Shown here: one piece after another, positions 7,844 to 56,843 of the stretch
Numbering within the stretch: position 1 is the stretch's first letter
Layout: every line of letters begins with the position of its first letter
NCBI RefSeq assembly: GCF_002951615.1
Contig: NZ_CP019062.1
Coordinates: 3,224,001-3,288,000, forward strand
DNA: 64,000 nt
Source: Rahnella sikkimica
GTDB taxonomy: Bacteria; Pseudomonadota; Gammaproteobacteria; Enterobacterales; Enterobacteriaceae
Reading direction: 5' to 3'
Notes under the pieces: generated by a model
Database searches by the model: none
The model's input: the letters and a program-made list of their open reading frames with translations, nothing else
What the model was told of the DNA's origin: nothing
Position numbers and translations under genes: made by a program

Positions 7844-9220
7844 ATGAAAATAATAATTCTCGGTGCCGGACAGGTTGGCGGAACACTCGCTGAAAATCTG
7901 GTGGGTGAAAACAACGACATTACCGTTGTCGATACCAACACCGTCCGGTTACGTCAGCTTCAGGACAAATTTGACCTGCGCGTTGTGCAGGGGCACGGTT
8001 CTCATCCGCGCGTACTACGTGAAGCCGGCGCCGAAGATGCCGATATGTTGGTAGCAGTGACCAATTCTGACGAGACCAACATGGTAGCGTGTCAGATTGC
8101 GTATTCACTTTTCAATACGCCAAACCGCATTGCGCGTATTCGTTCCACGGAATACATCCGTGAGTCCGAAAAGCTTTTCCATCCTGAAGCTGTACCAATT
8201 GACCACCTGATCTCCCCTGAGCAATTAGTTACTGATTACATCTACAAATTAATCGAGTACCCGGGCGCATTGCAGGTTGTTAACTTTGCAGAAGGGAAAG
8301 TGAGTATTGCAGCAGTGAAAGCCTATTATGGCGGTCCGTTGGTGGGTAACGCGCTTTCCTCAATGCGCGAACATATGCCGCATATCGAAACCCGCGTTGC
8401 GGCGATTTTCCGTCAGGATCGTCCAATCCGTCCGCAGGGTTCAACCATTATTGAAGCAGGCGACGAAGTATTCTTTGTGGCCGCCTCTCAGCACATCCGT
8501 GCGGTAATGAGCGAACTCCAACGATTGGAAAAACCCTACAAGCGGATCATGATCGTCGGTGGCGGTAACGTTGGTGCTGGTCTGGCCCAACGTCTCGAGA
8601 AGAATTACAGTGTAAAACTGATTGAACGAGATCAGCAGCGGGCTGCCGAACTCGCGGAGCTGTTACAGGATACAATTGTTTTCTATGGCGATGCTTCTGA
8701 CCAAGAGCTGTTAGCAGAAGAACATATAGAACAAGTCGATGTGTTCATAGCGCTCACCAATGATGATGAAGCAAATATCATGTCTGCGATGCTGGCAAAG
8801 CGCATGGGGGCCAAAAAAGCGATGGTTCTCATTCAGCGCAGTGCGTACGTAGATTTGGTGCAAGGCAGCGTGATTGATATTGCGATTTCACCTCAACAGG
8901 CAACGATTTCTGCACTGCTTGGGCACGTTAGAAAAGCAGATATTGTCAGTGTTTCGTCGTTACGCCGTGGTGTAGCCGAAGCTATAGAGGCGATTGCGCA
9001 TGGCGATGAGACAACATCTAAAGTCGTCGGTCGTACTGTAGAACAAATAAAATTACCGCCTGGTACCACGATTGGCGCTATCGTGCGCGGGAATGATGTG
9101 ATTATTGCTAATGGCAACAGTAGGATCCAGCAAGGTGATCATGTGGTGATGTTCATTACAGATAAAAAATTTGTCAGGGATGTGGAACGCCTTTTCCAGC
9201 CGAGCCCGTTCTTCTTATAA
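7844..9220 (+). CDS. trkA: Trk potassium uptake NAD-binding subunit TrkA
   Basis: This 458-residue peripheral membrane protein gates the TrkH/TrkG potassium channels in response to nucleotides. It is a tandem duplication of the RCK unit: one Rossmann domain starts ILGAGQVGG at residues 4-12, the second has [10 protein letters not shown] near residue 240, and each is followed by a TrkA-C subdomain. No trkH is nearby, as is usual in Enterobacterales, where trkA lies apart from it. Confidence 0.98.
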
Positions 9221-44809: not shown

Positions 44810-47800
44810 ATGACCGGATTTCCTGCCGCCCGTCAGGGCGATAATACTGCCACCGGCGGCCCGATTGTTCAGGGTTCTCTGGGCGTGATGATTGGCGCAC
44901 CAACCGGCGTGGCTTGCTCGGTTTGCCCCGGCGGTGTGGTGGAAGGCAGCCCCGTTAACCCGTCCCTCGGTGCCAAAGTTCTTCCGGGCGAGACCGATAT
45001 CGCGCTGCCCGCTTCTTTGCCGTTTGTCCTTTCGCGTGCTTACAGCAGCTATAAAACCGGCACACCCGCGCCGGTCGGGATGTTCGGCCCCGGCTGGGCT
45101 GCGGCGGCGGATATCCGCCTGCAAATCCGCGCCGATGAACTCATCCTTAACGATAATTCGGGGCGCAGTATCCATTTTCATCATCTGCCGCCGGGGCAGA
45201 TTGTGTTCAGCCACAGCGAAAATCTCTGGCTGGCGCGCGGCGGTGCCGATAAGCAAATCGGGGCGCATCCGCTCAGCAAATTATGGCAGGCGCTGCCGGA
45301 CGAACTGCGCAACAGCCCGCATTACTATTTTGTCGCCAATGACGCCACCGGCCCCTGGTGGATTTTAGGCTGCGTGCAGCTGCCCGAAACTGCCGAAGAC
45401 GTGCTGCCGCGTCCGTTGCCGTCTTCACGTGTGCTTTTTGGTTTGTGCGACCGCTTTGGTCATCAGCTTAACTATCATCGCGACGCCGAAGGCGAATTCG
45501 CCGGGCAGATTACCGGCGTCACCGACAGCTGCGGGCGGCGTTTCCGCCTTGAATTAGTCACGCTGCCGGACTTCAAACCCGCACAGAATAACGGCTGGGG
45601 CGCGGACGGCGGTGTGCGGCTTTCCGCCGTCTGGCTGACGAAAGATTTAGCGTTTTCGGACTTGCCGGCCAGACCGCTGGTGCGCTACGACTTCACGCCA
45701 CGCGGCGAACTGAAAACCGTTTATGACCGTTCAGGTGAAATTGTCCGTGAGTTTAACTGGCATAGCGAAAACACCGGTCTGATGATTGCCCACCGCTACG
45801 CCGGACATCCGGCGTCCCGCTACGTGTACGACGCGTCCGGAAAAGTCATTTCACAGGTCAATCCCGGCGACCTGTCTTACGAATTTGAATACACCAAAAA
45901 CCAGACCCGCGTCACCGACAGCCTCGGGCGCTTACGCGTCTATCACTTCGAGGGTGAAAAGGGACTTCGCCGCGTGGTCAGACTCGAACAGGCCGACGGC
46001 AGCTGCACGCAAAGCGCGTTCAACAACCGCGGCCAGCTGATATCCCAGACCGATGTCTCGGGACGCACCACCGAATTTCATATCAACCCGGCCAATGGCA
46101 CGCTGGGCGCGATTTTGCATCCGGGCGGCGAAAAGCGCAGCCAGTTCAACTACAACAAACAAGGGCAGCTGGTTTGCAGCACCGCACCGGACGGACGCCG
46201 CGTGAGCAGGGAATATGATGCACTGGGCCGTCTGACCGCTGAAACCGACGCCCTGCACCAGACCCGCCGCTATCATTACGCCGACGATAAAAGCGCGCAG
46301 CCTTGCGCTACCGAAGATGCGGCGGGCGGGCGTCAGACGCTGGAATGGAACGCGACAGGCTTGCTCGCCGCTTTCACCGACTGCTCCGGTTTCAAAACGG
46401 CTTACCGCTATAACCGCGACGGTCAGCCGCTGGAAATCCTGCACGAAGAAGGGATGAAAACCCACTTTGCATACGATGCGCGCGGGCGTCGGATGTCGCG
46501 TGAGGACAGTGCGGGCGGGAAAACTCTTTGGGAATATAACGCCGCCGGAGACGTCATCACCGTCACCCTACCGGACGGCAGTCAGTCCACGCAAGCCTAC
46601 GACGAGCGCGGCAATCCGCTCTCGCAAACCGAAGGCGGGCTCACGCGACAAACCGAATTCGACAGCGCGGGAAGGCTGATACGGCTGGTCAACGAAAACG
46701 GCGCTGACACGAAATTCAGCTACGACGTCATGGACCGGCTGACACAGGAGGTTGGCTTTGACGGGCGCGTGCAAAACTATCAGTACAACGCCGCCGGTCA
46801 GCTTATCCGCAGCGACGACGCCGGGCTGATGACGCACTGGCATTACGATGACGAAGGCCAGCTTATCCGCCAGCAGCGTCCGGAAACAAAAGACGGCCCG
46901 GACGACGTGCTCTGGCAATATGACGCCGCCGGACGCATCACCGAAACCGCCCACCGCAGTGAGACCCATCTGGTCAGCGTGCGGTTCCAGTACGACGCCA
47001 ACGATAATCTTAACGGTGAACGCCAGATTATCCGCAACGCCCGCGGCGACCTGCTCTGGCAGCACACCGCGGTGCGCGGTTTTGACGTGCGCGGCTTTGA
47101 ATCCGCCGTCCGCTACGACGGGCTGCCGGAAATCCTCTGGCAGACCTACGGCCCCGGCCACCTGCTCGGCGTAAAACTCGGCGATGACGTGTTGCTGGAA
47201 ATCACCCGCGACAAGCTGCACCGCGAAACCACCCGCCGGTTCGGCGACGGATGGCAGAGTGAAAATACTTATTCAGTGACCGGACAACTCGCCGCGCAGC
47301 ACACGCCGGACGTAGGCCACCCGAACCTGAAACGCCATTATCACTACAACGCCGCCGGTCAGATGACGCAGATGACCACCGGCCTCGGCGACCACCATTA
47401 CGCCTACACCCCGGCAGGACGACTGAACAGCGTCAGCTCCCCCGATGGCTTTCTCGCCACCTTCACCGACGCCGCCGGTAACCGCAACTGTACGCACCCC
47501 GACCTGAATACGCCGCTGACCGATACGCTGCCGGTCTGGTATCAAAACCGTATCCAGCGCGATGAGCGGTACATTTATGAGCACGACAAATTTGGCAACC
47601 TGACGGAAAAACGCCCGTACCGCGCCGGCTGGCGGGAAGCGCCGCGCGGGGCCATCAGCCACTTCGCCTACGACCAGGCGCACCGGCTGACGCGTCTGAC
47701 AATGGAAGAGGACGGCCAGATTCAGACGCAGGCGCGCTATATCTACGACCCGCTCGGGCGGCGCGTCGGCAAGCACGTGACGCAACTCCATCCGCAGTCC

Positions 47801-48937
47801 GGCGAAACAGAAACCCAGAACATCTGGTTCGGCTGGGACGGCGACCGTCTGGTGCTGACCGAAAACCGCGACACCCAGCTGCACACGATTAATCACCCGA
47901 ACAGCTTCGTCCCGCTGCTGCACGCCGAACATGCCCGCATGGAAGACAGCCACCGCTCGCTGGCAGAAAAGCTCGAAGAAGAAAACGGCAGCGCGTTGCC
48001 GACCGAACTGCATCTGCGCCTGAATGAAATCGAAAAGGACATCCGTAAAAACCACCTCAGCGACGACAATCAGCAGTGGCTGGACGCCGTCGGCCTGAAA
48101 GCCGAAAACCTGGCGCTGTGGCTCGACCCGATGCCGCAGGGTGACGCGCTGAAAATTCACCTTTATCACTGCGACCACCTCGGCACACCCATTGCGCTGA
48201 TTAATCACAGAACCAGCAAGGTGGAATGGAGCGCTGTGATGGACGTCTGGGGCAACGCGGTGGATATTTTCAACCCGTACAAACTGCGCCAGCCCATCAG
48301 AATGCAGGGCCAGCATTACGACGAAGAATCGGGGTTGCATTACAACCGTCACCGTTATTATGACCCGATGCAGGGAAGATATATTACGCAGGATCCGATT
48401 GGGTTGAGAGGGGGAATGAATTTATATGGGTATGCGTTGGATCCGGTTCTTGGAGCAGACCCTCTTGGATTAAATTGGGCCTCGTTGGGAAGTCTTACAA
48501 ACCAAGTTGGGACGAAAGATTCAGCAAACCTCACGCAGCAGGTTTTAGAACCTTGGTATATAAATGCAGGTTCCTATGCAATTTTGAACCAAACTTATAA
48601 TGATATGAAGAGATTAGGCTTAGATAAGTCAGACCAATTCTTCCATTGCACTGCATTTTGTCGTGTATCGAAATCGAAAGTTGCCAATAATAAGATTGCA
48701 AGTCTGATGGGGGGAATAAAAGAAGGTAGAGATCATTTATTGAATGAGTTTGGTTTGTATGGTTCAAAAAGAATAAATGAATTAGATATGATAATTGACA
48801 ATGGAGAAGACCTTAAGGTCAACGAGCATGGATTAACTTGTCCCTCAGAAGAGAGTTGTGCAAGCAGGTGCGGGGGATATTTAGATTCTAAACATCGTAA
48901 AACAGCCAAGGTTCTCAAAAATGAAGGTTACTTATGA
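44810..48937 (+). CDS. PAAR/RHS polymorphic toxin
   Basis: This 1375-residue protein has a short PAAR-like region (about 1-45, AARQGDNTATGGPIVQGS...), a DUF6531-type segment (about 50-70, GETDIALPASLPFVLSRAYS) and a long run of YD repeats (about 150-1110). The RHS core end is YYDPMQGRYITQDPIGLRGG, then DPLGL at 1217-1221, the usual self-cleavage point. The released C-terminal tip (about 1222-1375) is AT-rich, unlike the GC-rich core. It holds HCTAFC (1279-1284), KE..RD (1304-1308) and TCPSEESCASRC (1343-1354). I recall similar cysteine-bearing tips in other enterobacterial RHS proteins but know no activity for them. Delivery is presumably by a type VI secretion system; no Hcp, VgrG or Eag chaperone gene is nearby. 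The immunity candidate overlaps the stop codon by 4 bases. Confidence 0.92.
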   Translation: MTGFPAARQGDNTATGGPIVQGSLGVMIGAPTGVACSVCPGGVVEGSPVNPSLGAKVLPGETDIALPASLPFVLSRAYSSYKTGTPAPVGMFGPGWAAAADIRLQIRADELILNDNSGRSIHFHHLPPGQIVFSHSENLWLARGGADKQIGAHPLSKLWQALPDELRNSPHYYFVANDATGPWWILGCVQLPETAEDVLPRPLPSSRVLFGLCDRFGHQLNYHRDAEGEFAGQITGVTDSCGRRFRLELVTLPDFKPAQNNGWGADGGVRLSAVWLTKDLAFSDLPARPLVRYDFTPRGELKTVYDRSGEIVREFNWHSENTGLMIAHRYAGHPASRYVYDASGKVISQVNPGDLSYEFEYTKNQTRVTDSLGRLRVYHFEGEKGLRRVVRLEQADGSCTQSAFNNRGQLISQTDVSGRTTEFHINPANGTLGAILHPGGEKRSQFNYNKQGQLVCSTAPDGRRVSREYDALGRLTAETDALHQTRRYHYADDKSAQPCATEDAAGGRQTLEWNATGLLAAFTDCSGFKTAYRYNRDGQPLEILHEEGMKTHFAYDARGRRMSREDSAGGKTLWEYNAAGDVITVTLPDGSQSTQAYDERGNPLSQTEGGLTRQTEFDSAGRLIRLVNENGADTKFSYDVMDRLTQEVGFDGRVQNYQYNAAGQLIRSDDAGLMTHWHYDDEGQLIRQQRPETKDGPDDVLWQYDAAGRITETAHRSETHLVSVRFQYDANDNLNGERQIIRNARGDLLWQHTAVRGFDVRGFESAVRYDGLPEILWQTYGPGHLLGVKLGDDVLLEITRDKLHRETTRRFGDGWQSENTYSVTGQLAAQHTPDVGHPNLKRHYHYNAAGQMTQMTTGLGDHHYAYTPAGRLNSVSSPDGFLATFTDAAGNRNCTHPDLNTPLTDTLPVWYQNRIQRDERYIYEHDKFGNLTEKRPYRAGWREAPRGAISHFAYDQAHRLTRLTMEEDGQIQTQARYIYDPLGRRVGKHVTQLHPQSGETETQNIWFGWDGDRLVLTENRDTQLHTINHPNSFVPLLHAEHARMEDSHRSLAEKLEEENGSALPTELHLRLNEIEKDIRKNHLSDDNQQWLDAVGLKAENLALWLDPMPQGDALKIHLYHCDHLGTPIALINHRTSKVEWSAVMDVWGNAVDIFNPYKLRQPIRMQGQHYDEESGLHYNRHRYYDPMQGRYITQDPIGLRGGMNLYGYALDPVLGADPLGLNWASLGSLTNQVGTKDSANLTQQVLEPWYINAGSYAILNQTYNDMKRLGLDKSDQFFHCTAFCRVSKSKVANNKIASLMGGIKEGRDHLLNEFGLYGSKRINELDMIIDNGEDLKVNEHGLTCPSEESCASRCGGYLDSKHRKTAKVLKNEGYL
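48281..48412 (+). repeat. RHS core-end repeat, intact copy
   Basis: This 132-base segment inside the RHS gene (AAACTGCGCCAGCCCATC to GGGTTGAGAGGG) has a near-identical but shortened copy at 49495-49594. It ends exactly where the GC-rich core gives way to the AT-rich tip. Confidence 0.88.
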
Positions 48938-49491
48938 TGACAAGTAGATCCTCAAAACTAACCATAAAAAAAACGTTCTTATCAGTTTTTTATTTTTTTG
49001 TTTCTATGGTTTTTTGTTGTTTTATTATCCTGTTCATAAGTGGCCTTTTGGATAACGGAACAACGAATAAATCTTTTGGAAAACGTAGTGAAATCCCTAG
49101 CGATGATGGTATTAATTCTTGGCTGCCGTTATTTTTTCCTGCTGAATCCGAAAAGGTAAGTTATTTTATAAATGTTGAAGCTGGTTATTTTTATATATCT
49201 TTTGATTTAGAAAAAAATAAAGGTGATGAATTCATTAAGGAATTAACAACAAAAGCGACAACAGAAGGGTTTGAGTTTTTACAAAAAAAATATAGCGGGG
49301 TGGGCAGCGCATGGTGTAAGTTAGATATTATTCCTGAACAAGGAGATGGAAAACATATTTTTATCATAGGAAAGGATAAAGATAAAGATACGTATTACAT
49401 GAGCTCAATATCTGATAATGGGAAATTTAATAATACAAAGCACACCGAGAACTGGGCGAGATATTGTACCTCATCAAATTTTTTTGAGTGA
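48934..49491 (+). CDS. Candidate RHS immunity protein, membrane-anchored
   Basis: This 185-residue protein has a basic N terminus, one predicted membrane helix (about 15-39) and a soluble domain likely facing the periplasm. The start overlaps the RHS stop (ATGA) and has AAGG 6 bases upstream, so toxin and immunity are coupled. Conserved with the paralogue at 49604: the W-L-P-x-F-F-P motif (63-69), the AWCK segment (126-129) and a near-terminal Tyr-Cys. The cysteines at 128 and 178 could form a disulfide. I do not recognise a named family. The immunity role is inferred from position, composition and the paralogue. A periplasmic domain would suggest that the toxin acts outside the cytoplasm. 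Confidence 0.72.
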   Translation: MMTSRSSKLTIKKTFLSVFYFFVSMVFCCFIILFISGLLDNGTTNKSFGKRSEIPSDDGINSWLPLFFPAESEKVSYFINVEAGYFYISFDLEKNKGDEFIKELTTKATTEGFEFLQKKYSGVGSAWCKLDIIPEQGDGKHIFIIGKDKDKDTYYMSSISDNGKFNNTKHTENWARYCTSSNFFE

Positions 49492-49494
49492 GAT

Positions 49495-49594
49495 AAACTG
49501 CGCCAGCCAATCAGAATGCAGGGGCAACCGTCACCGTTATTACGACCCGATGCAGGGACGGTATATCACGCAGGATCCGATTGGGTTGAGAGGG
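49495..49594 (+). pseudogene. Displaced fragment of RHS core end
   Basis: One hundred bases match 48281-48412 with about five substitutions and one 32-base net deletion (after ATGCAGGG), which breaks the reading frame. The fragment stops at the same GGGTTGAGAGGG boundary that precedes the toxin tip in the intact gene. It is best read as the leftover of an earlier core end or tip cassette. It appears to supply the GAGAGGG ribosome site for the downstream gene. Confidence 0.88.
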
Positions 49595-49603
49595 ATATTT
49601 TGA

Positions 49604-50080
49604 ATGAAGAATATCAAAAAAATAATAATTTCAATGCTTTTAATTACCCTATGCATTTTGTCTTGGGCCTTTTTTTTTACAAATAATGATATTGTAACGT
49701 TGAGGTATAATACATATGAAGATATTCATCCGGATAGTGGCGTGAAAACATGGCTACCTGTTTTCTTCCCAAAAGATGCATCTAATATTTATTTTTACTC
49801 AAACCTGGATATAAGTTTCTTTTATGTCGAATTTGAATTAAATGAAAAACAATCGATTTTATTTGAAAAGAGTCTAGTAATAAAAACGACTGCGAAAGGG
49901 ACGTCGTATGTTGAAAAAATCAATAAAATTGAAACGGCATGGTGCAAGTATGGAACCCCAGAAAGTGAAGGCTTTGACGAATTATATCTTATCGGCAAAG
50001 TAAGCGAGACGGGGAAATATGTATTAACGGCAAAATTTAAAGATGATAGCAAGGATCTTAAAAATTATTGTGAGAGATAA
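49604..50080 (+). CDS. Orphan paralogue of the RHS immunity protein
   Basis: This 158-residue protein has one N-terminal membrane helix (about 6-25) and a soluble domain homologous to the 48934 gene product: W-L-P-V-F-F-P (50-56), TAWCK (111-115), a LYLIGKVSETGKYV strand and Cys156 near the end. Both paralogues keep the cysteine pair (114 and 156 here). It is AT-rich, has no toxin gene next to it and starts just after the RHS core fragment. It may protect against neighbours that still carry the lost toxin tip. Confidence 0.7.
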   Translation: MKNIKKIIISMLLITLCILSWAFFFTNNDIVTLRYNTYEDIHPDSGVKTWLPVFFPKDASNIYFYSNLDISFFYVEFELNEKQSILFEKSLVIKTTAKGTSYVEKINKIETAWCKYGTPESEGFDELYLIGKVSETGKYVLTAKFKDDSKDLKNYCER

Positions 50081-50205
50081 TGAGAATATTATTGGACACA
50101 GAAATCATTTTGGGTATGGCTACACTCTAAATACGAAGTAAAAACAGAGTTTATTATTACAACCTAAAAAAATAAACCATATCACCAGAAAAATTAAACT
50201 CTTAA

Positions 50206-50230
50206 CCGATACCCCAACTCGGGATATCGG
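50206..50230 (-). terminator. Hairpin after the IclR-type regulator gene
   Basis: CCGATA...TATCGG with an inner CCC/GGG forms a stem 9 bases past the regulator stop. A modest T-rich stretch follows on the minus strand. Confidence 0.55.
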
Positions 50231-50238
50231 CTACAAAC

Positions 50239-51051
50239 TCACACTCCCCCCACCTTCAGCCCAAGCTCGCCGGAAATCGCGGCGGCGGTTTCTTTCAGCG
50301 GTTTCAGCAATGCTTCTTCGCCGATCACGCCGAGTTTTGCCGTCGAGAGTGAAATCGAGACGGCATAGGTCACGCGCCGGTGGATATCAAACACCGGCAC
50401 CGCCAGACAGGACACGCCCAGCTCATTTTCTTCCCGATCCATCGCCAGGCCCTGCTGGCGGATTTGCGCCAGCTCTTTGTCCATCTCTTTCAGGCTGACA
50501 ATCGTATTACGGGTCAGCGGCTGTATCTGTTCGCTGTGACTTTCCCAGTAAGCCGGCACGTAATCCTGATGCCCGTACGCCATGTAGATTTTGCCCATTG
50601 CCGAGCAATACAGCGGCATATGCTGGCCGATGTACGCGCGGGTTCGCAGCATTCCGGTGGTCGGTTCGAGCTTGTAAATCAGAATGGCGTGGTCGTCTTC
50701 CCGGCTGGAGAAGTTAACGGTTTCGCCGGTCGCGATATTCAGCGCTTCAAGATGCGGCGCAGCGACGTGGATAATATTCAGGGAAGACAGTGATTTCTGG
50801 CCGACAGAAATAAACTTGGTGGTTAAGCGATAGCTCCCTGCCGCCGGTGCTGGCGTGACATAACCGCAGGATTGCAGCCCCTGAAGTAAACGGTGAACCG
50901 TACTTTTGTTCAGTTCCGCCAGTTCAGAAAGATGCGCCAGCGGGCAGCCGTTCGGGTAATTGCTGAGTATTTCGATCAGCTGTAACCCACGGAACAGGCT
51001 CTGACTTCCTGCCGGTTTATCTTTCCCCTGTTCGTTCTCTGCGTCTTTCAT
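50239..51051 (-). CDS. yiaJ: IclR-family regulator of the yia operon (YiaJ)
   Basis: This 270-residue protein has an N-terminal winged helix (about 20-80, SQSLFRGLQLIEILSNYPNG, LNKSTVHRLLQGLQSCGYV) and a C-terminal IclR effector domain (about 100-265, REDDHAILIYKLEPTTGMLR; LGVSCLAVPVFD). It is very like E. coli YiaJ, the repressor of yiaKLMNOPQRS, and lies divergently upstream of yiaK as there. The ligand is expected to be an ascorbate-derived sugar acid. Confidence 0.94.
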   Translation of the reverse strand: MKDAENEQGKDKPAGSQSLFRGLQLIEILSNYPNGCPLAHLSELAELNKSTVHRLLQGLQSCGYVTPAPAAGSYRLTTKFISVGQKSLSSLNIIHVAAPHLEALNIATGETVNFSSREDDHAILIYKLEPTTGMLRTRAYIGQHMPLYCSAMGKIYMAYGHQDYVPAYWESHSEQIQPLTRNTIVSLKEMDKELAQIRQQGLAMDREENELGVSCLAVPVFDIHRRVTYAVSISLSTAKLGVIGEEALLKPLKETAAAISGELGLKVGGV

Positions 51052-51285
51052 ACCTTGAAGAATTCCCGTTATGCCGATGGTGTTTCAATCCTGAACCGAT
51101 GGTATAGCAAACTTCCTTCGCACGCGAAATAACTCCTTTTCCCTGCCTGCTTTTTGCCCTGCCTAAAATGTGTCCTTCATCACGAACCGGACATGAAGTT
51201 TTTATCCAACTGATTTTAAAGCGTTTTAAAAACGACCGGATGGATTGTGATCCGTTCCGGACAAGAGTAGATTTTTGAAATCAGA

Positions 51286-51300
51286 TTCCACATAGTGAAA
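51286..51300. promoter_or_regulatory. Candidate YiaJ operator
   Basis: TTCCAC-ATA-GTGAAA is a near-perfect inverted repeat (5 of 6 arm positions) between yiaJ and yiaK, 52 bases before the yiaK start. IclR-type operators often have this TTTCAC...GTGAAA form. A possible -35 TTGAAA lies just before it (51275-51280). The rest of this 300-base gap shows nothing else certain. Confidence 0.55.
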
Positions 51301-51351
51301 TATAGAGATCTAAAAACAACCAGGACTTTAACAATAACACCGGAGAAAGGT

Positions 51352-52829
<1,478 letters not shown>

Positions 52830-52883
52830 CCGTCAGGATAAAAAACAGTTCGGGAAGACAGTTAATTCAATGGGGAAATTACT

Positions 52884-53858
52884 ATGCAAAAGCATGCAGG
52901 CTTTATTGTCGGCGCTTATCCTTGCGCGCCCTCTTTTCATCAGCGACATGAAAATGAAGAAACCGAATTCTGGCGCAAGCTGGCCGATATTCCGGGGATA
53001 CGTGGAATAGAACAACCTTGTCTGGAAACGTTGCATCCGTACGGCGATGAATGGTTATTCCGGCATCTGCCTGACGAGTGGGACATCGTGGTGACCGGCG
53101 TGATGGAAACCATGCGCAGGCGCGGAACCTTGCCGGGCTTCGGGCTGGCGTCCGAAGACGCTGAACAGCGTCGTGCCTGTGTCAGCTATTACCGCCACGT
53201 TTTCGAAAAGGTTGAGCAGACCAATACGCGCTTTGGCAGAAGCAAAGTGCTGGCCGTAGAGTTGCAGTCCGCGCCGCTGGCAGGCACACAAAATGTCAGC
53301 CAGGCCGCGCGCTGTTTCACGGAGTCTTTGCAGGAAATCCTGAGCTGGGACTGGCCGTGCGGGCTGCTTATCGAGCATTGCGATGCGCTGGATAAACCGG
53401 CTTCACGCAAAGGTTTTCTGCCCTTGGCGCATGAACTGACGGCGATTGCTGAGGCCAAAGCCCGCACCGGGAAAACAGCCGGCGTGTGTATCAACTGGGC
53501 GCGTTCCGCCATTGAAGGCCGCAATACCTCCCTGCCGCTGGAACATCTGCAAATCAGCCAGCAGGCCGGTGTTCTTCAGGCGCTGATGTTCTCGGGCACC
53601 ACCCGCGAAGGTGCTTATGGCGACTGGCAGGATCTGCACGCGCCGTTTGCGCCGTTCACAGGCAGTGAAGCGGGATGTCAGGAAAGCCTGATGACCATCG
53701 ATATTGCCGCCGAAATGTTCCGGCACGCTCCCCCGGAATCACTGAGCTTCTCGGGAATTAAATTACTGGAAATGAGTGCCAGCGCCAGCGTGGATCATCG
53801 CATTGCTATTTTGCGGGACGGTATTCAGGCCATGACTCTGGCAATCAACAAAAAATAA
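52884..53858 (+). CDS. yiaX1: YiaX1-like protein (DUF4862)
   Basis: This 324-residue protein looks like a TIM barrel of the sugar isomerase/epimerase kind: GIRGIEQPCLETLH, then AVELQSAP, GLLIEHCDALDKP, VCINWARSAIEGRNT and ALMFSGTT, each ending a predicted strand. I place it in DUF4862, and the position equals yiaX1 in the Klebsiella yiaKLX1X2PQRS ascorbate operon. The reaction is not known. An aldose/lactone isomerisation before YiaK is possible but is a guess. A GGGGAAA site precedes the ATG. Confidence 0.7.
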   Translation: MQKHAGFIVGAYPCAPSFHQRHENEETEFWRKLADIPGIRGIEQPCLETLHPYGDEWLFRHLPDEWDIVVTGVMETMRRRGTLPGFGLASEDAEQRRACVSYYRHVFEKVEQTNTRFGRSKVLAVELQSAPLAGTQNVSQAARCFTESLQEILSWDWPCGLLIEHCDALDKPASRKGFLPLAHELTAIAEAKARTGKTAGVCINWARSAIEGRNTSLPLEHLQISQQAGVLQALMFSGTTREGAYGDWQDLHAPFAPFTGSEAGCQESLMTIDIAAEMFRHAPPESLSFSGIKLLEMSASASVDHRIAILRDGIQAMTLAINKK

Positions 53859-53966
53859 TAATCATAAAATAACGGCATCTTATTTTACACCATATCCCTT
53901 TTCTCTGAGGGGAAACCCGCTCGTCGGTTAAACGGGCTCTGTAACTCATTATTAAGGTAATAAGTT

Positions 53967-55304
53967 ATGAATAAAAACTCTGATACTCTGCAAAGCAACC
54001 GGTTATTAAAAGAAATACCTAAGCAACGCTGGCTTCGAATTATTCCGCCCATCCTGATCGCCTGCATTATTTCTTATATGGACAGGGTGAATATTGCCTT
54101 TGCGATGCCAGGCGGAATGGACGCGGATTTGGGTATTACCGCATCCATGGCCGGACTGGCGGGCGGAATATTTTTTATCGGCTATTTATTCCTGCAAGTG
54201 CCGGGCGGAAAAATCGCGGTTCACGGCAGCGGTAAGAAATTCATCGGCTGGTCGCTGGTCGCGTGGGTCATTATTTCGATTCTCACCGGCCTGGTGACGA
54301 ATCATTATCAGCTGTTATTCCTGCGCTTCGCACTGGGCGTGGCAGAAGGCGGCATGTTGCCGGTCGTGCTGACGATGATCAGCAACTGGTTCCCCGATGC
54401 CGAACGCGGCAGGGCGAATGCGATTGTGATCATGTTTGTGCCGATCGCCGGGATCATCACCGCCCCGCTCTCGGGCCTGATCATCAGCGCACTCGACTGG
54501 CGCTGGCTGTTTATCATTGAAGGGCTGCTTTCCGCCGTCGTTCTGGTGATGTGGGTACTGACCGTTTGCGACCGCCCGCAGGAAGCGCGGTGGATTTCGC
54601 CCGAGGAGAAAAACTGGCTGATATCGACGCTGGCCGCCGAACAGAAAGCCATTGCCGGGAAAGAAGTCAGAAACGCCTCGCTCGGCGCGGTGCTGGCCAA
54701 CCGGACGATGTGGCAGCTTATCGCCCTGAATTTCTTCTACCAGACCGGCATTTACGGCTACACCCTGTGGCTGCCGACCATCCTGAAAGAACTCACGCAT
54801 TCCACCATGGGACAGGTCGGCGTCCTCGCGATCCTTCCTTACATCGGCGCCGTCGCGGGTATGTTGCTGTTCTCCTCGCTGTCAGACCGCACCGGTAAAC
54901 GCAAACTGTACGTGTTCCTGCCTCTGCTGGGCTTTGCGGCCTGCATGTTCCTGTCGGTGATGCTGAAAAATACCGTCTGGCTTTCGTATGCCGCGCTGGT
55001 CGGCTGCGGCTTCTTCCTGCAATCCGCCGCCGGGGTGTTCTGGACCATTCCCGCCAAGCTTTTCAGTGCAGAAATGGCCGGTGGCGCACGCGGTGTGATT
55101 AACGCGCTGGGCAATCTGGGCGGATTCTGCGGGCCGTATGCCGTCGGCCTGCTCATCACCTTCTACAGCAAAGACGCCGGTGTTTATTGTCTGGCGATCT
55201 CACTCACGCTGGCGGCACTGATGGCATTGCTGTTGCCTGCCCGGTGTGACGTTCCGGCGCAATCGGCGAACAAATTACCCGACAGCCGTCCGACAGCAGC
55301 CTGA
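53967..55304 (+). CDS. yiaX2: MFS sugar-acid transporter (YiaX2-like, ACS family)
   Basis: This 445-residue protein has 12 predicted membrane spans of the anion:cation symporter family, which carries hexuronates and related sugar acids. The first loop reads ISYMDRVNIAFAMPGGM, with the family Asp-Arg-x-Asn. It sits where E. coli has the yiaMNO TRAP transporter genes and corresponds to Klebsiella yiaX2. The expected substrate is 2,3-diketo-L-gulonate or a close ascorbate product. Confidence 0.88.
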   Translation: MNKNSDTLQSNRLLKEIPKQRWLRIIPPILIACIISYMDRVNIAFAMPGGMDADLGITASMAGLAGGIFFIGYLFLQVPGGKIAVHGSGKKFIGWSLVAWVIISILTGLVTNHYQLLFLRFALGVAEGGMLPVVLTMISNWFPDAERGRANAIVIMFVPIAGIITAPLSGLIISALDWRWLFIIEGLLSAVVLVMWVLTVCDRPQEARWISPEEKNWLISTLAAEQKAIAGKEVRNASLGAVLANRTMWQLIALNFFYQTGIYGYTLWLPTILKELTHSTMGQVGVLAILPYIGAVAGMLLFSSLSDRTGKRKLYVFLPLLGFAACMFLSVMLKNTVWLSYAALVGCGFFLQSAAGVFWTIPAKLFSAEMAGGARGVINALGNLGGFCGPYAVGLLITFYSKDAGVYCLAISLTLAALMALLLPARCDVPAQSANKLPDSRPTAA

Positions 55305-55313
55305 GGAAATACG

Positions 55314-56843
55314 ATGAAAGTTTCATCCGGAGAATACTGGTTAGGGATCGACTGCGGCGGCACCTATCTCAAGGCGGGATTGTACGATCACGCAGGGCAG
55401 GAATCCGGCGTTTGCCGCCAGTCCCTGCCGGTGCTGAGCGACCATCCCGGCTGGGCCGAGCGTGACATGCCTGCGCTGTGGGCGTCATGTGCCAGTTGTA
55501 TTGCCGCCCTGCTGCGCCAGCAAAACGTCAGCGGTGCGCAGGTGAAAGGCATCGGCATTTCGGCGCAAGGCAAAGGATTATTCCTGCTGGATAAAGCCGG
55601 AAATCCGCTGGGCAGGGGGATTTTGTCCTCCGACCGCCGCGCCGGTGATGTGATCAGCGCCTGGCAGCGTGACGGTTTACACCAGCAAATCTATCCGCTG
55701 ACCCGGCAGGCGCTGTGGGCCGGGCATCCGGTGTCATTACTGCGCTGGATAAAACTGCATCAGCCGGAGCGTTATCAGCAAATCGGCACGGTAATGATGG
55801 CGCACGATTATCTGCGTTATTGCCTGACCGGCGAGCGTGGATGCGAAGAAACCAACATTTCCGAATCCAATCTGTATCACATGGCGAACGGCGGTTACGA
55901 CGCCCGGCTGGCTGAAATGCTGGGGATTGCCGAAATCAGCGCGGCGTTGCCGCCGGTGGTCGGTTCGGCGGAAATCTGCGGAACCGTGACGCCAGACGTC
56001 GCGGCGCTGACCGGATTAACCGCCGGAACGCCGGTGGTAGGCGGATTATTCGATGTGGTCTCTACCGCGCTTTGCGCCGGACTTCACGACGAATTCACCC
56101 TGAATGCGGTGATGGGTACGTGGGCGGTCACCAGCGGAATATCAGCGGAAATGGGCGAGCGGGAAAATCATCCGTACGTTTATGGCCGCTACGCCGGGGG
56201 CGAAGGTTTTCTTATTCACGAAGCCAGCCCGACATCTTCCGCCAATCTCGAATGGCTGAACCGGCAAACCGGCGGCATGGCGTTTGACGAGATTAACCGC
56301 GCCGTCAGCGCCCTGCCCAAAGCTGGGACCGACGTTCTGTTCCTGCCCTTCCTTTATGGCAGCAATCAGGGTGCGGAAATGACCGCCGGATTCTACGGTC
56401 TGCAATCGTTGCATCATCGCGGCCATTTGTTGCAGGCGGTGTACGAGGGCGTGGTGTTCAGCCATATGACGCACCTTAACCGAATGCTCGAACGCTTTCC
56501 GCAGGCAAAAACACTGCGCGTGACCGGCGGACCGGCGCGTTCTGAGATCTGGATGCAGATGCTGGCCGACGTCAGCGGAATGCCGGTGGAGCGCCCTCAG
56601 ATCGAAGAAACCGGCTGTCTGGGCGCGGCGCTGGCGGCGATGGTCGGCACCGGCGTCTATGCGACTTTTGCGCAAGCCCAGCGTCATCTGCACTTTGCCG
56701 TGAAGCGTCTGGAACCCGACGCCGGTGCGCAGATGGCCTATCAGAAAAAATCACAACGTTACCAGTTCCTGATCGACGCACTGGGCGGTTACCACGCCCG
56801 CTGCGCGGCGGCTGACTCACAGGGAAAACCTCATCATGACTAA
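55314..56843 (+). CDS. lyxK: FGGY carbohydrate kinase (L-xylulose/3-keto-L-gulonate kinase)
   Basis: This 509-residue FGGY kinase has the N-terminal phosphate-1 motif GIDCGGTYLKAGLYD, the GIGISAQGKGLFLLD loop and the C-terminal ATP-site RVTGGPARSEIWMQMLAD. In the yia pathway LyxK phosphorylates 3-keto-L-gulonate (and L-xylulose), supplying SgbH. It is 9 bases after the transporter and overlaps sgbH by 8 bases. Confidence 0.92.
   Translation: MKVSSGEYWLGIDCGGTYLKAGLYDHAGQESGVCRQSLPVLSDHPGWAERDMPALWASCASCIAALLRQQNVSGAQVKGIGISAQGKGLFLLDKAGNPLGRGILSSDRRAGDVISAWQRDGLHQQIYPLTRQALWAGHPVSLLRWIKLHQPERYQQIGTVMMAHDYLRYCLTGERGCEETNISESNLYHMANGGYDARLAEMLGIAEISAALPPVVGSAEICGTVTPDVAALTGLTAGTPVVGGLFDVVSTALCAGLHDEFTLNAVMGTWAVTSGISAEMGERENHPYVYGRYAGGEGFLIHEASPTSSANLEWLNRQTGGMAFDEINRAVSALPKAGTDVLFLPFLYGSNQGAEMTAGFYGLQSLHHRGHLLQAVYEGVVFSHMTHLNRMLERFPQAKTLRVTGGPARSEIWMQMLADVSGMPVERPQIEETGCLGAALAAMVGTGVYATFAQAQRHLHFAVKRLEPDAGAQMAYQKKSQRYQFLIDALGGYHARCAAADSQGKPHHD

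Follow-up and report, generated by a model that had tools for sequence, protein, structure and literature searches.

We have identified in Rahnella sikkimica a Rhs toxin gene whose exchangeable C-terminal tip is almost certainly homologous to serum amyloid A (SAA) and which is followed by two homologous immunity genes, imm1 and imm2, separated by a remnant of the Rhs core. The locus lies on the forward strand of a 64,000-nucleotide stretch (NCBI RefSeq assembly GCF_002951615.1, contig NZ_CP019062.1, positions 3,224,001 to 3,288,000), referred to here as the window, and all coordinates are positions within it. We propose, with a probability of roughly 0.68, that the gene encodes an effector of the type VI secretion system (T6SS) type with an SAA-like tip, that imm1 blocks this tip, and that imm2 has been kept from an earlier tip of the same family. 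The effector would deliver a divergent bacterial SAA domain, of the SAA/Wnt branch of the Lipocone superfamily, into the periplasm of a Gram-negative rival, where the tip would use a His-Glu-Asp(-Asn) site to cut or swap the head groups that membrane or carrier lipids bear through a phosphate link. The imm1 protein, anchored in the inner membrane with its soluble domain on the periplasmic side, would intercept the tip. Recombination may have placed a new tip-imm1 cassette on the Rhs core; of the old tip, a deletion would have spared only the last codons, behind a stub of core, and imm2 would have been retained, probably guarding against rivals that still use the older variant.

The Rhs gene (44810-48937, forward strand) encodes a protein of 1375 residues, with Pfam matches to RHS repeats, DUF6531 and RHS, and a Rhs-associated core. 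An earlier note, made from the sequence alone, had called the product a PAAR-RHS toxin; the RHS part of that description was upheld, but of PAAR only the literal letters are present at the N-terminus, with no Pfam match to a PAAR domain at E <= 1 in the Rhs protein. The match to the Rhs-associated core model stops at residue 1221 (DPLGL), and the tip was therefore taken to be residues 1222-1375 (48473-48934), with the SAA-like domain beginning at about residue 30 of the tip. The hallmarks of a Rhs polymorphic toxin, namely RHS repeats, a conserved core, an exchangeable C-terminal tip and an adjacent immunity gene, are all present.

Searches of the window toxin alone against Pfam, NCBIfam and the PDB at first gave no usable match for the tip, and an initial protein search using the tip region of the full Rhs protein returned only itself and one relative. 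Scores against Pfam SAA (PF00277) were 16.0 bits for the window tip and at best 24.4 bits (P0022), below the curated cut-off of 30.8, and the family is therefore described as SAA-like and homologous to SAA rather than as a member of Pfam SAA. The profile search and structure prediction of residues 1222-1375 that had been recommended in the earlier note did yield an identification, since besides the sub-threshold score the predicted model has a four-helix core and a further short helix, as in the SAA/Wnt clade (prok-SAA) of the Lipocone superfamily. The candidate active site comprises H58, E84, D113 and N117 (tip numbering), of which the model places the first three on helices 2, 3 and 4, respectively, matching the Lipocone pattern. 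In an alignment of 11 rows (eight tips, one bacterial SAA and two mammalian SAAs), H58, E84 and D113 are invariant and N117xxG120 is likewise kept in every row, preceded in the tips by Val or Ala. The sNxxGR motif is retained only in part, its Arg position being occupied by Leu in 8/8 tips, by Arg in 3/3 SAAs and by Ile in P0003, and for this reason the tip is termed a divergent, SAA-like branch. The tip also carries two Cys pairs, 59/63 and 129/133.

In the sections of their study that we drew upon, Burroughs, Nicastro and Aravind (2025; PMC12419801) group SAA, Wnt, TelC, VanZ and other families together as Lipocones, which have a His, a Glu and an Asp on their second, third and fourth helices and for which they predict activity towards the head groups of lipids. 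The authors count prok-SAA among the tips of polymorphic toxins. The tip described here resembles those prok-SAA tips in its predicted fold, in the His/Glu/Asp on helices 2/3/4 and the NxxG on helix 4, in its use as a polymorphic-toxin tip, and in having an immunity protein of the membrane-anchored or lipoprotein kind. It differs in that Leu (once Ile) replaces Arg after NxxG, in its sub-threshold Pfam SAA score, and in an immunity soluble domain with two conserved Cys instead of the four reported there. Only two Cys of that domain are conserved or nearly so (imm1 C128 and C178), and the imm1-type family accordingly lacks the four-Cys signature given for immunity proteins of prok-SAA and Min-Wnt toxins. 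By analogy with the Lipocone toxin TelC, we propose with a slight preference that the tip acts at the periplasmic face, with lipid head groups as its target. TelC/TipC of Streptococcus intermedius, as summarized in the same sections of PMC12419801, share with the present pair the superfamily, a lipid head-group target outside the cytoplasm and immunity outside the cytoplasm, but belong to a different Lipocone clade, a type VII secretion system and a Gram-positive organism.

The best-surviving alternative, which we regard as rather improbable, is that the tip kills without catalysis, binding lipid and permeabilizing the inner membrane from its periplasmic side, and that imm1 sequesters it at the membrane. 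Mammalian SAA has membrane activity, and both the SAA fold of the tip and the predicted membrane anchoring of the immunity proteins fit this alternative, but a purely lipid-binding protein has no obvious need for the polar H-E-D-N set that is invariant in eight tips and three SAAs.

The gene imm1 (48934-49491, forward strand) encodes 185 residues, and its start codon lies inside the end of the toxin gene, overlapping the Rhs stop. Among 392 genomes drawn from the family, the tip was found in 7 and the immunity gene in 11, including all 7; the immunity gene thus occurs in 7/7 genomes with the tip and in 4/385 without it (Fisher 1.2e-12, kinship ignored), the search alignment having held sequences from three of the seven tip genomes. 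The immunity gene adjoins the tip in all seven, which is a mark of an antibacterial toxin, although it is broken in three of them (G009, G298 and G356). We consider it very probable that the locus encodes a Rhs effector with imm1 as its cognate immunity gene. The four genomes without a recognized SAA-like tip (L040, L041, L042 and L045) carry the immunity gene in other settings; that of L042, itself broken, again lies 3' of a Rhs-core end, and those of L041 and L045 have lipobox-like sites. The window's own genome was the sole match among 394 genomes drawn from the order, and no relatives were found in phages or in viral contigs (two pattern matches, none confirmed). A Pfam SAA search of 388 genomes of the phylum gave one match above the cut-off and four weak ones, the window tip not being reported, and a tblastn search of plasmids with that above-cut-off bacterial SAA gave no match.

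The membrane anchoring of the immunity proteins that the earlier note had read from the sequence is borne out, in that imm1, imm2 and the Escherichia coli proteins discussed below all have an N-terminal hydrophobic helix, predicted in imm1 and imm2 to span the membrane, with the imm1 soluble domain predicted to be periplasmic. In 10 of the 12 immunity proteins examined the N-terminus contains a hydrophobic stretch, and in the remaining two there is a lipobox-like site. Sites of this kind followed by Asp were read by eye in L032, L033, L034, L041 and L045. In E. coli, such an Asp retains a lipoprotein in the inner membrane. Judged from these signals, either kind of anchor is expected to place the soluble domain on the periplasmic side.

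WLPxFFP, AWCK and a Cys near the end of the chain occur in both immunity proteins, but only 36 of 137 residues are identical (26%; BLASTP E 8e-20 in a single comparison), in agreement with the earlier description of them as homologous yet far from identical. Both match the NCBIfam model for E. coli YbbD (NF011298), imm1 at 72.3 bits (E 5.6e-20) and imm2 at 63.1 bits (E 3.8e-17), below the equivalog cut-off of 326 bits that E. coli proteins behind the tip exceed (379.6 and 373.4 bits); imm1 and imm2 are therefore YbbD homologues and not YbbD itself. Profile searches of the immunity proteins, likewise recommended, were productive to that extent, but the imm1 structure was not: the model (predicted local distance difference test score 82) comprises a helix and a predicted alpha/beta domain, and the fold search gave no clear match, a Mog1/PsbP/DcrB-like fold being among the candidates compared. 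The Pfam label PF26610 is displayed for six immunity relatives.

Among annotated relatives, the closest are ylbH and ybbD of E. coli, which lie beside rhsD. YlbH, a displaced rhsD tip, is 52% identical to the window tip over 123 residues and is directly followed by YbbD, as the tip is by imm1 here; one viewed genome annotates the protein behind the tip as YbbD family. In K-12 both ylbH and ybbD are annotated as pseudogenes, whereas in the window the tip is attached to its Rhs protein and imm1 and imm2 are open reading frames. Of the E. coli loci viewed, four have the tip displaced to a position behind rhsD-ybbC, and one has it attached to RhsD. A 901-base query covering tip and immunity gene matched 2851 of 5426 complete E. 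coli genomes, 2726 of them over >=80% of its length, these counts referring to DNA presence and not to intact genes. A contig titled Alistipes (L018), the single locus that a scan of genome contigs gave, bears rhs sequence of the E. coli kind, and a plasmid record under the name Klebsiella oxytoca (L009) has the E. coli ybbP-rhsD-allS order; both are probably mis-binned or mislabelled, and because the Alistipes-titled locus is E. coli-like, no taxonomic evidence is taken from it. The earlier note had regarded the system as a candidate for an undescribed effector-immunity pair. This does not hold for the toxin class, since SAA/Lipocone tips were published in 2025 (PMC12419801, in the sections drawn upon) and ylbH/ybbD are relatives in E. 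coli, but on the immunity side it may hold in part: the YbbD-type family is absent from the immunity families named in those sections, and the main text contains neither 'YlbH' nor 'YbbD'.

An in silico study of 2020 (PMC7216683, known to us in part) modelled an E. coli RhsD tip as similar to human SAA1 (TM 0.62) and interpreted the resemblance as host interaction or aggregation. That RhsD presumably belongs to the same family, because the RhsD of a related strain bears this tip. The interpretation would favor an anti-eukaryotic or cytoplasmic toxin whose downstream proteins have some other role, which we consider very unlikely for the window tip given the immunity neighbor in 7/7 tip genomes and the hydrophobic N-terminal stretch (10/12) or lipobox-like site (the other two) of the immunity proteins.

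The gene order reported earlier, namely RHS toxin, immunity 1, RHS core fragment and immunity 2, is present as open reading frames and a core remnant. Within the 112 bases between imm1 and imm2, the remnant (49495-49594, forward strand) matches the 3' end of the upstream Rhs core in two pieces, at 28/29 bases (49495-49523; 49 bits) and 66/70 bases (49525-49594; 109 bits), compared with at most 26.5 bits in 100 Markov shuffles; it is short, and about 33 bases have been lost internally between the two pieces. Right behind it, overlapping the end of the core match and the start codon of imm2, one frame reads EGYFE-stop (49590-49607, forward strand), which we take as the last codons of a vanished tip. 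The toxin relatives end in EGYLE (P0003 and P0022), EGYLQ (P0029), EGYL (window) and GYLK (E. coli), and in random stretches of like composition GY[LIFM]-x-stop fell near a start codon in 168 of 200000, with the EGY form in 8. From this resemblance, the old tip was apparently of the same toxin family, and it seems to have been lost in a deletion that reached from the Rhs core to its final codons.

The second immunity gene, imm2 (49604-50080, forward strand; 158 residues), is an orphan of the YbbD-like family and shares 98%, 84% and 70% identity with P0005, P0010 and P0011, respectively, with which it groups (support 100/99). The imm1 protein groups with P0006-P0009 and a piece from L035 (support 86/96), in a tree for which the tool flags long branches. 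As the two fall in different clades, imm2 did not arise by recent local copying of imm1, and in all likelihood it is the survivor of a same-family tip; the earlier note's suggestion that the tip was replaced while the older immunity gene stayed is upheld and sharpened to replacement within one family. That imm2 is instead a diverged tandem duplicate broadening protection against the same toxin would suit the shared family, orientation and adjacency, but is disfavored by the tree, by the 26% identity to imm1 against 98/84/70% to proteins of another clade, and by the Rhs core and tip-like C-terminus preceding imm2, and we hold it to be highly improbable. P0011 and the SAA-like tip P0030 both come from Rahnella sp. 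PD12R, on contigs of the same size, from which size alone their adjacency is presumed. L035, a congeneric sister genome, has a tip whose front runs directly into the rear of an imm1-like gene (8246-8912), which on its sequence is another decayed toxin-immunity cassette. A shared site was not apparent, the matches to L035 spanning only Rhs parts and about 100 bases upstream.

Retention of older parts behind an intact Rhs gene has precedents. Orphan Rhs immunity genes of Serratia marcescens are kept in this manner, and one such protein was demonstrated to protect (PMC10539506, as far as it was consulted); on this precedent we propose that imm2 may guard against the older variant. Displaced rhs tips are likewise kept behind an intact gene in the work of Jackson (2009; PMC2935791, consulted in part), where displacement is by non-homologous tips, while here old and new tip are apparently of one toxin family.

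The source genome carries two T6SS sheath (VipA) genes, one on a 549-kb contig, and at least 10 Rhs reading frames of 1192-1410 residues plus one fragmentary locus (150 of 242 candidates scored); one of these frames also lies on the 549-kb contig. Over a 5-kb stretch, that contig matches 17 plasmid records, of which 11 are from Rahnella, at 82.7-86.1% identity. The region 3' of the cassette (50239-56843) encodes what we take to be an IclR-type regulator, a malate/lactate dehydrogenase-like protein, a YhcH-like protein, a major facilitator superfamily transporter and a sugar kinase, presumably resembling the yia sugar-use cluster.

The function of mammalian SAA is still termed enigmatic (PMC12110822, in the part consulted). 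As a tentative idea that we rate as doubtful, lipid head groups might be severed by a single active site common to toxin and animal SAA, YbbD-like proteins might be natural inhibitors of SAA domains, and immunity genes of this family might outlive their toxins because competitors go on using variants of the one SAA toxin; the family, present in this genome and in roughly half of those of E. coli, could then be a tractable Gram-negative branch in which to find an enzymatic activity of SAA. With its paired inhibitor and its relatives in E. coli, the bacterial SAA-like toxin offers a direct assay of whether the SAA fold acts as an enzyme on lipid head groups. The locus also illustrates clearly how a toxin appears to have given way to a divergent relative from within its family while the earlier antidote stayed in place.
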